Below are positions 21,913 through 59,942 of a DNA stretch of 64,000 bases, one piece after another. The stretch's first letter is position 1; each line of letters begins with the position of its first letter. Source of the DNA: an uncultured Ulvibacter sp. (lineage in GTDB: Bacteria > Bacteroidota > Bacteroidia > Flavobacteriales > Flavobacteriaceae); contig CALSSW010000001.1 in assembly GCA_943789105.1 (NCBI GenBank), forward strand, positions 1-64,000. Reading direction: 5' to 3'. The position numbers were made by a program, and so were the translations under genes. Under the pieces are notes generated by a model. That model did no database searches and was not told the origin of the DNA. It saw nothing but the letters and a program-made list of their open reading frames with translations.

Positions 21913-22383
21913 AACAATTTTTTTTGGGGGTTATTTATAGTACAAACATAATTATAAACTTCTAAACAAAACACTTAATCCGATAATAATTACATTTAAA
22001 CGATAAATAAAGGTTTTTTTAAGCATTTAAAAAGTATTTTCTTACAATTAAGGCACTGTAAACAGGAAGTTTATCGATAAACTGCAATTTTACATTTATT
22101 TTGTTTTTTTATTGCATTTTGTGTGTTTTTATCGATAATATTTGCTTTTAATCGTATTTTTTGAAGAAAAAAATGCTATAAAACGTCAATTCTTACACTT
22201 TCAAATAAAATAATCGATAAAGTGCACACCAAAAGAATAGTGTTACTATTTTCGATTTCTGTAAAACAATTTTTAAGGGGTAGCGGATGGTTTTATTTAC
22301 AAATCAGATTCAACTAAAAAAATTATCGATAAGCGCGCAAAACAGATTACATTAAACCTGAAACTTTTTAGGATAATATAATA
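21913..22383. promoter_or_regulatory. AT-rich divergent intergenic region with TTATCGATAA palindromes
   Basis: About 470 bp without coding potential between two divergent paralogous genes. It holds three perfect TTATCGATAA palindromes (22071-22080, 22129-22138, 22323-22332) and one copy with one mismatch, TAATCGATAA (22211-22220). Weaker related words (CGATAATAA, CGATAAATAA near 21980-22005) also occur. A regulator binding array is the likeliest reading. Confidence 0.5.
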
Positions 22384-22590
22384 ATTCTTGGAGATAATTT
22401 GTACACCCCCCACTCCAAGTATCGAACTTTTTCTTGCAAGATTTGGATAGGTTAAGAGATTTCACTCTACGCTTAAATACGGTTTAAATTTCACTCTTGT
22501 AGTTGTATTTAAAAAGAAATGTTCTATTTTTGAGAGAGATTTAATTAATCATTTAATCACTAATTAATGAAACAATTTTTTACACTATTA
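22384..22590 (+). repeat. Leader module, copy 1 (direct repeat with 25747-25953)
   Basis: Aligned without gaps to 25747-25953 at a constant offset of 3363 bp. Bases 22437-22586 are identical in both copies: 130 bp of upstream sequence plus the first codons of the signal peptide. The module includes a promoter and two copies of TTTCACTCT. Confidence 0.92.
22503..22532 (+). promoter_or_regulatory. Promoter of the 22567 surface-protein gene
   Basis: TTG (22503-22505), 19 bp, TATTTTTG (22525-22532) fits the Bacteroidota consensus, with the expected start about 28 bp before the ATG. The same promoter is repeated in the second leader copy at 25866-25895. Confidence 0.6.
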
Positions 22591-30627: not shown

Positions 30628-31085
30628 CACATTTTTTACTGTAGCTTAAAAAAATCAGTCAAAAACCAACAAGCCAACCTTAAAATTTGTTTTATTACAA
30701 AAAGGTGTTGTTTTTAAAATCATTTTTTATAAATCTGCTTTTTTTTTTAAAAAATATGTTAAAGTTTTTTCTAAAATATGTTGAAAAAACATCTTGTTAA
30801 AACAAGGGTGAAAGTGCCCTTAAACTACCGCTGTATCAACTCTGGTTAGGCTTTTCAACTACATTTTTTTGAATTGTTAATAATCTAGAGGCAGCCTTTT
30901 AAGCTACTGTTTATCAGTGTTTTGTGAAATAAATTAACAAAACTATAGTAACAACTCAATTTTTTCGTTGTTGAAAACTTTGTTGAAAACCCGCTGTGTT
31001 TTGTTCTTTTTAAACCTCATATATTTATCATATTTGTTAGTCCCCAGTAAACAGACATTTTTAATAATTTATTTAAGAAGATATA
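30628..31085 (+). promoter_or_regulatory. Long structured leader of nrdB-nrdA
   Basis: A 458-bp gap with several ordered elements. AAAATATGTTAAA (30751) recurs as AAAATATGTTGAA (30773), 22 bp apart. GTTGAAAA (30780-30787) can pair with TTTTCAAC (30852-30859), enclosing further hairpins such as AAGGG/CCCTT (30804-30821), and is followed by a run of seven T. TTGTTGAAAAC occurs twice more (30968-30978, 30980-30990) and could compete for the same TTTTCAAC. GTTTTGT/ACAAAAC (30919-30943) is another stem. The 62-residue ORF at 30968 shows no protein-like features. Confidence 0.45.
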
Positions 31086-53375: not shown

Positions 53376-53639
53376 GCGTGTTTGTTTTATATCTTTTAAC
53401 AAAAGATGTATGCAAATTTAATAAGTTCTTTGATATTGACCCTCCTTTTAAGGTATTTATAGCAATGCCAAAAACAACAAAAAGAAATAATTAAAAATTA
53501 ACATGTAAATTTCATGTTAATACAGCTTCTCTCTAGCTGTATACAGATGCAATCTTTTTCTCAGATGGGCAATAAAAGCAGTTAAAATAATGCTTTATAA
53601 CTTACATAGCCATATATTTACATAGTAATTTTGGATTAT
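53376..53639 (-). promoter_or_regulatory. Upstream region of aspS with two tandem hairpins
   Basis: Two perfect 8-bp inverted repeats, each with a 7-base loop, touch each other: TTAACATG/CATGTTAA (53498-53520) and ATACAGCT/AGCTGTAT (53520-53542). On the minus strand the first is followed by TTTTTAATTATTTC, so it could be a terminator or attenuator ahead of aspS. No ORF. Confidence 0.45.
53626..53633 (+). promoter_or_regulatory. Putative -7 element of the small-RNA candidate
   Basis: TAATTTTG matches TAnnTTTG and would place the transcription start at about 53640, right where the structured region begins. No good -33 element was found. Confidence 0.4.
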
Positions 53640-53768
53640 AGTGTACCGTAAGAACCAAGATTAACCAATAGAAGTATTGGGCACGTATGCCAAAATGATG
53701 TTTTTTGTTTCTTACACGTAGTTTTCAATTATACAAAGTCGCCTGTAGCAGTACAGGCGACTTTTTTT
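53640..53768 (+). ncRNA. Candidate structured small RNA, family unknown
   Basis: About 130 nt on the plus strand in a gap with no ORF. Elements in order: 5' arm GTAAGAA (53648), hairpin CCAATA-gaag-TATTGG (53664-53679), hairpin GGCA-cgta-TGCC (53680-53691), 3' arm TTCTTAC (53709-53715), and terminator stem AGTCGCCTGTA/TACAGGCGACT followed by seven T (to 53768). It lacks the landmarks of SRP RNA, tmRNA, RNase P RNA or 6S RNA that I can recognise by eye. Confidence 0.5.
53738..53768 (+). terminator. Strong terminator, mainly plus strand
   Basis: AGTCGCCTGTA-gca-g-TACAGGCGACT followed by TTTTTTT on the plus strand. On the minus strand only three T follow, so it may also act weakly for the RND operon that ends at 53813. 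Confidence 0.8.
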
Positions 53769-53812
53769 AAAATACGGGTCCAATGTATTGAGGTTTCCTT
53801 TTTAACACCTTT

Positions 53813-58505: not shown

Positions 58506-59942
58506 TTAGTATTTGTTTTTAATCTCTTCTACAGACATCCTTAAATTTGGGGTATTTAAAACCGTTTCCATTTCTGCTTTGGCATTTATTATTTCTACCA
58601 TAGCATTCAAGTGTTGTTGTTGTACCCTAAATAATTGGCTTTGAGCTTGTCTTAAATCAAAACTTGTTGCCAAACCTTCTTTAAATTTTACCTGATTTTT
58701 ATGTTCAATGCTTCTAGCCAAGACAAGGTTTTTTTGAGTGTTTTGATAACGCTCTAGACTATACTGATAGTTGCTTTTTGCTCTTTCAAAGTCTAGTTTT
58801 ACACGCTGGATTGTTTGATCAAAATCTGTTTTTGCTTGATCTAGGGCTATTTTTGCTTGTTGGTTTCTAGCATTTCTCAAGCCACTAGAGAAAACCGGAA
58901 CATTTAAAGTTATTCCAAAAGCAGAAGATTGATACCAGTTTTGATTACTACTGAAAAAATCAAACTGATTTCCAAAGCCTGTACTCCCATAATCGATAAA
59001 ACCATTTAAAGAAGGCATGCCTTGGCTTTGTTCAAGTTTTAATTCTATCACGCGCTGGTTGGTGAGGTTTTCTGCAAGTTTATAGTCCAGGTTTTTTTCG
59101 ATTTCCAAGGTGTTGTCCAAAAGGACCAAAGAAATATTATCAGCGGTGAGCCCTTCAAGGGTATTGGTTAACACCACTTTTTTATCTACACTAATACCTA
59201 AGGTTAGATTTAATAATTGTTTTGCAATATTAAAAGACCTTTGTGCATTACTTAATTGTGTTTTCTCATCCAATAGTGTAATCTCTAACTGCTGTATAGC
59301 TTGTTGTTCTATAAGGCCGTTTTCATAGACCTTTGTTGCCTCAAAGAGGTTTTCTTCTACATTAGCAATGTTGTTTTTTGTAATCGTTATAAACGCATCT
59401 GCCACTAGCACATTTGCATAGGCCTCGATAACTTGTTTTCTTACCTCTAGGTTTGTTTTTTCGTTTAAATTTTCATTAAAACTAAGGAGCGATTTTACAC
59501 CTTCAAGTGCAAACAAGTAGCTTCCGTCAAAAATAAGTTGGGTAAGGGTGGCAGAGGCTCCTAAATTTTGTTTTGTCCCGAAAACTATAGGAACAAAACC
59601 CTCAGGCGCAATGGGTGTCCCCGTGGCTTGTATACCAAAAAACTCCTCAACGGTGTTTATCACACTGGTAGTGTTGTCAAAGGCTGCAGCAGGCAGTAAT
59701 GAAACTCGTTGGCTTAGGTTATTTTGGTAAGAAAAATTAGCATCTATTTGTGGCAGCCCCATTGCTGTGGCTTCCCATTTTCTTTTTAACACCTTAGAGA
59801 TCTCTCTTCTAGAATTAATGGTTGCATAACTACTATCAATTGCAAATGAGATGGCCTGTTGTAAAGAAAAAGAGTAGGATTTGTCTTGGGCAAATCCCTG
59901 TAGGCTTACTAGAGCGCATAGTATAATGATGTGTTTTTTCAT
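58506..59942 (-). CDS. TolC-family outer-membrane efflux protein
   Basis: A 478-residue protein with signal peptide MKKHIIILCALVSLQGFAQ and two repeats of long coiled-coil helices, each ending in an outer-membrane strand region, as in TolC. Seen are SFSLQQAISFAIDSSYATI at the start and LDFERAKSNYQYSLERYQNTQKNL and EGLATSFDLRQAQSQLF in the second repeat. It is the exit duct of the tripartite pump. Its ATG overlaps the stop of the TetR gene by one base (TAATG), so the two are translationally coupled. Confidence 0.92.
   Translation of the reverse strand: MKKHIIILCALVSLQGFAQDKSYSFSLQQAISFAIDSSYATINSRREISKVLKRKWEATAMGLPQIDANFSYQNNLSQRVSLLPAAAFDNTTSVINTVEEFFGIQATGTPIAPEGFVPIVFGTKQNLGASATLTQLIFDGSYLFALEGVKSLLSFNENLNEKTNLEVRKQVIEAYANVLVADAFITITKNNIANVEENLFEATKVYENGLIEQQAIQQLEITLLDEKTQLSNAQRSFNIAKQLLNLTLGISVDKKVVLTNTLEGLTADNISLVLLDNTLEIEKNLDYKLAENLTNQRVIELKLEQSQGMPSLNGFIDYGSTGFGNQFDFFSSNQNWYQSSAFGITLNVPVFSSGLRNARNQQAKIALDQAKTDFDQTIQRVKLDFERAKSNYQYSLERYQNTQKNLVLARSIEHKNQVKFKEGLATSFDLRQAQSQLFRVQQQHLNAMVEIINAKAEMETVLNTPNLRMSVEEIKNKY

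Follow-up and report, generated by a model that had tools for sequence, protein, structure and literature searches.

The window analysed here (the whole stretch of 64,000 nucleotides) contains a gap with no open reading frame of at least 60 amino acids between 53403 and 53812, and the genes flanking it, aspS (Pfam tRNA-synt_2) and an RND transporter gene (ACR_tran, AcrB-type), both lie on the minus strand, as an initial sequence-only reading of this DNA had described. Within the gap, the plus strand carries a compact unit (53596-53768) composed of a promoter-like box, TAATTTTG, a predicted RNA of ~130 nt, and a 13-bp hairpin with a U-tract. The putative promoter region (53596-53633) combines an invariant upstream TTTATAACTT (about 53595-53604) with the -7-like box (53626-53633) and is kept in all six genomes found to carry the unit, including the most distant relative, G003. 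The box fits the published sigma-A -7 consensus TAnnTTTG, which was measured in F. psychrophilum (PMC9723704); this motif is kept in five of the six genomes, its last base differing in G001, and no clear -33 TTG is seen at the expected place upstream.

The predicted small RNA would span 53639-53768 (about 130 nt), its 5' end being placed from the box and its 3' end from the U-tract. A closing stem, formed by GTAAGAA (53648-53654) and TTCTTAC (53709-53715), together with an inner helix surrounds two small hairpins (53648-53715; RNAalifold and pair counts). Hairpin 1 (53665-53680) pairs CCAATA (53665-53670) with TATTGG (53675-53680), and hairpin 2 (53680/81-53690/91) pairs GGCA (53680-53683) with TGCC (53688-53691). 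Every sequence word singled out in the sequence-only reading is present where it had been placed, and both of its tight hairpins exist, but because TATTGG and GGCA overlap at G53680 they are never complete at the same time and split as 6+3 or 5+4 pairs. The near-invariant core ATTAACCAATAGaagTATTGGGCACGTATGCCAAAATGATG (53660-53701), a candidate seed, takes in both hairpins and the single-stranded CAAAATGATG. An intrinsic terminator, common to the convergent RND operon, follows at 53735-53768, with arms AAAGTCGCCTGTA (53735-53747) and TACAGGCGACTTT (53752-53764) and a run of seven T at 53762-53768; its stem, previously counted as 11 bp, reaches 13 pairs once A-U pairs are included. A pattern scanner did not pick it up, probably because the long A-U stem uses up the T-run that the scanner requires.

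Conservation of the unit

A 201-base query (53590-53790) recovered full-length copies, 86-92% identical, from five further genomes of the GTDB genus, one copy per genome; all five are Bacteroidota/Flavobacteriaceae MAGs, one of them labelled Aequorivita sp. HC6-5 (exact pattern matches). Promoter, RNA and terminator together are 96% (G010), 90% (G001), 86% (G004), 86% (G003) and 85% (G002) identical to the window, whereas in the same comparisons the two flanking genes, aspS and that of the transporter, reach just 43-69% at their fourfold-degenerate sites; for G003, the contrast is 86% to 43%. Conservation starts near 53596 and stops at the T-run, and the sequence decays on either side, with mean pairwise identity of 0.18 upstream (53536-53555) and 0.03 downstream (53776-53795). 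Compared with G003, the gap holding the unit is the most conserved of the ORF-free syntenic gaps of the window (0.90 against ≤0.79); it ranks second to a tRNA gap in the comparison with G010, and second of five, behind one shorter gap, in that with G004. Positions 53676-53695 are invariant in the five genomes in which aspS is the neighbour, and the G003 core is near-identical, differing at loop positions and two single bases.

Since this conservation is far above that of synonymous sites and neighbouring gaps, the alignments indicate that purifying selection acts on the ~170-bp unit. Conservation, not fold stability, is the strong evidence for the unit. It also bears on the notion that no RNA function exists and that a bidirectional terminator and a promoter-like sequence were simply conserved by shared descent. 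The six genomes are closely related, the structure is weak, and a hairpin is ancestral at the site, but the block exceeds synonymous sites and neighbouring gaps in conservation by a wide margin, and we regard this account as very unlikely.

Independence from flanking genes and strand assignment

In G003, a TonB-dependent-receptor-like gene replaces aspS as the upstream neighbour, and all three parts of the unit (promoter, RNA, terminator) are preserved. In the four species of the genus that have large genomes (G005-G008), the RND transporter is followed by a hairpin, and the unit is absent whether the gene beyond the transporter is aspS, a TonB-type receptor or another gene; G009, a 59%-complete genome, was left out of this presence/absence call. 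Because the unit is intact away from aspS in G003 and missing from G005-G008 whatever the neighbour, it is independent of aspS, and by these gene-order comparisons the RNA is clade-specific and behaves as a unit of its own. An own promoter and terminator, conserved independently of neighbours, are what is expected of a trans-encoded sRNA, and both are seen here at the level of sequence; an aspS cis-leader should lie upstream of aspS in all members, which is not the case in G003. Irrespective of the presence of the RNA, the neighbour of the RND transporter alternates within the genus between aspS and a TonB-dependent-receptor-like gene (L005, L102).

The terminator alone proves little, because the hairpin also ends the RND operon. 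It had been argued that a terminator pointing along the plus strand needs a plus-strand transcript; this argument is weak, as the four relatives lacking the RNA also have a hairpin in the terminator's place, where the convergent RND operon ends in a near-symmetrical stem with T on both sides. Such dual use would suit a cis element of the minus strand (an extended RND operon 3' UTR or an aspS leader), as would the RND 3' end adjoining the unit in all six genomes and the minus strand of the full RNA region folding as well as the plus. Nevertheless, the G003 unit is intact with aspS gone as neighbour, the conserved block lies beyond the RND terminator, the RND operons of four relatives do without it, and both the T-run and the -7 box are oriented along the plus strand. 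Moreover, the proposed pairs, read on the plus strand across the six genomes, include 8 G-U/U-G cells and 0 A-C cells; these wobble changes favour a plus-strand RNA, because a G-U pair on the plus strand would be an A-C mismatch on the minus. We thus consider a minus-strand element quite unlikely.

Predicted structure and coding potential

The full RNA region, terminator included, has a folding z-score of -3.4, mostly owing to the terminator. The 95-nt core lacking the terminator has z-scores from +0.8 to -1.9 over the six genomes, and the closing-stem block from -0.3 to -2.5. Judging from pair counts over the alignment, 96% of the cells of the whole structure are paired, mostly as invariant pairs or with wobble changes; both sides changed in 3 pairs, one in the terminator, where G003 has a compensatory GC to AU change, and the others in the inner helix, which is poorly conserved. 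The covariation score was equalled or exceeded in 16 of 500 shuffles. The modelled fold, with closing stem and two hairpins, is therefore plausible but stays unproven, because the six sequences are too alike. Of the novel structured small RNA put forward in the sequence-only reading, the conserved promoter-RNA-terminator unit stands, and the alignment of relatives shows conservation well beyond the terminator; its structured character is supported only modestly, with little covariation and core energies near those of shuffled sequences.

Within the RNA, at 53696-53722, the invariant AAAATGATG opens a hydrophobic frame of 6 to 13 codons whose length is not conserved. Were it translated, the unit might encode a small protein or leader peptide (MMFFVSYT in G000, the source genome), and the invariant ATGATG with an A-rich context ahead would fit this. 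The end of the frame varies, however (MMLFIS in G004, MMLFISYVYYSII in G002; alignment read by eye), and there is more variation after ATGATG than before it, so that a coding role appears extremely improbable.

Homologue searches

Searching Rfam 15 at the gathering threshold and at E ≤ 10 gave no family match at the locus, and the best sub-threshold matches were driven by the terminator (for example, rseX at 25.1 bits against 50). The two 6S models, RF00013 and RF01685, had no match in the window at either setting, and RF00013 had none in 59 relatives. The true 6S-Flavo RNA (RF01685) of the source genome sits elsewhere (G000:C4:244120-244228); with a distinct gene on contig C4 and no match to either model at the unit, a 6S identity was rejected. 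The earlier statement that the locus lacks the landmarks of known housekeeping RNAs is borne out by these searches, and its claim of novelty survives them.

Two covariance models, R1 of the full unit and R2 of the core only, both find the six genomes strongly. Over 301 family genomes, R1 gave no convincing homologue, the extra matches being terminators of other genes, and R2, run over samples of 400 genomes from the family and 398 from the order, gave weak matches only, none of them reliable: L107 falls within a coding gene, L106 is a plain terminator, and L194 and L195 are at the multiple-testing level. A pattern search of 400 family genomes and viral contigs found no copy beyond the genus, and BLAST of plasmids and phages found none. 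The sRNA is thus new to the databases searched, yet of a familiar kind.

In G006, a single intergenic Y-shaped hairpin with a T-run (C3:333698-333780; L113 1501-1583, minus strand) has GGGC..GCCTATGCCAAAA / GGGC..GCCTATGCCAAAAGGA in common with the RNA core, with different stems. It is possibly a distant relative of the RNA, or a chance terminator.

Relation to known small RNAs and proposed mode of action

Taken as a whole, the unit is in all likelihood a transcribed, functional RNA, that is, a lineage-specific sRNA gene, as far as can be judged from comparative data. GibS of Bacteroides thetaiotaomicron is an intergenic sRNA of about 145 nt with its own promoter and genus-level conservation, which folds loosely into two small hairpins, a linear region and an intrinsic terminator, and acts on mRNA start regions (PMC7366714). 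By description, the unit is alike in size, intergenic site, own promoter, loose two-hairpin fold, terminator and restriction to a genus, whereas GibS lies at another locus, carries its seed in an unstructured 5' end and has targets that are proven. Rfp18 and other independent sRNAs of F. psychrophilum, conserved at genus level and mostly with TAnnTTTG promoters (PMC9723704), are likewise, by description, independent flavobacterial transcripts comparable to the unit, though no homologue of the unit was found in the family samples. 6S-Flavo, present in the same genomes, resembles it in being short and encoded on its own behind a TA-rich -7 box, but it is a separate gene, whose model the unit does not match.

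Because its anatomy (short, AU-rich, loosely folded, with own promoter and terminator) resembles that of GibS, we favour the reading of the unit as an independently transcribed, trans-acting, base-pairing sRNA, which we hold to be probable irrespective of its target. A sigma-A-type housekeeping promoter at about 53596-53633 would start the ~130-nt RNA near 53639, and the transcript would end with the terminator hairpin and its U-tract (53768), both ends being suggested by anatomy and conservation. The RNA would be loosely folded, with the closing stem around two small hairpins and, downstream of this stem, a linear stretch that leads into the terminator; its near-invariant core GGGCACGUAUGCCAAAAUGAUG would most likely pair with mRNAs near their starts, blocking translation or promoting decay, as GibS does. 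Bacteroides are reported to have no obvious Hfq and ProQ homologues (PMC7366714).

Two elements are candidate seeds for such pairing: CAAAAUGAUG, which is unpaired and invariant, and the hairpin GGGCACGUAUG. Over the genomes searched, complementary sites were not in excess of a reversed-pattern control, and in the source genome they were mostly internal or antisense, with no obvious start-codon sites. This lack of seed enrichment, along with an invariance that covers hairpin stems and unpaired bases alike, would fit an RNA whose invariant hairpin core binds a small molecule or a protein (RNA polymerase or an RNA-binding regulator). Such an RNA is not 6S, given the separate 6S-Flavo gene and the missing RF00013 match, it matches no Rfam family, and its core folds weakly; we rate this explanation as unlikely.

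Candidate target of the RNA

For the favoured base-pairing sRNA, the most plausible target would be a TolC-like gene (58506-59942, minus strand) of the neighbouring RND efflux operon, so that the RNA might tune efflux. Among 48 genes of the window, this gene has the best-scoring start region, and its codons about 3-14 (59900-59935, minus strand), a predicted site within the coding sequence, can pair with the RNA core. Paired with the RNA of its own genome, the TolC-like start gave duplex energies of -21.8 (G000), -28.0 (G010), -25.6 (G001) and -22.8 kcal/mol (G004); the pairing is weak in G002 (-15.3 kcal/mol) and absent in G003 (-11.7), i.e. lost in two of the six genomes. Orthologues in four species lacking the RNA pair at background (-10 to -19).

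Permuting the RNA alignment columns over all six genomes, with five operon or neighbour genes tested, gave p = 0.011 for the TolC-like gene; the TetR-type regulator of the RND operon reached p = 0.048, and aspS, the transporter and the fusion protein showed no signal. Among 251 genes with a G010 orthologue, drawn from about 364 kb of genome and ranked by duplex energies only, the TolC-like gene stood second by composition-corrected score and eighth by energy, and two unrelated genes scored similarly. The start of this gene is the best candidate target by sequence complementarity, to be taken as a lead. The more specific proposal, that a new sRNA family at the 3' end of an RND operon represses the operon's outer-membrane channel gene through first-codon pairing and would be a dedicated, recently born efflux riboregulator in Bacteroidota, is in our judgement plainly unlikely.

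To our knowledge, trans-acting sRNAs of Flavobacteriia have seldom been characterised. The sRNA gene proposed here, compact, confined to one clade and missing at the same locus in sister species, offers a tractable case of sRNA birth beside an efflux operon; should the RNA control the adjacent operon, riboregulation and multidrug efflux would be connected in this phylum.

Other intergenic sequences of the window

Three further intergenic sequences of the window were noted. The best 150 nt of the ORF-free gap at 30631-30967 match G010 at 95% identity, a higher value than for most of the window's gaps. A large ORF-free gap at 21913-22566 is mostly unshared with G010 (26% overall) and has a conserved end at 22411. 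Finally, a short block upstream of aspS (53416-53435) has a mean pairwise identity of 0.94 and is probably the promoter or leader of aspS, on the minus strand.
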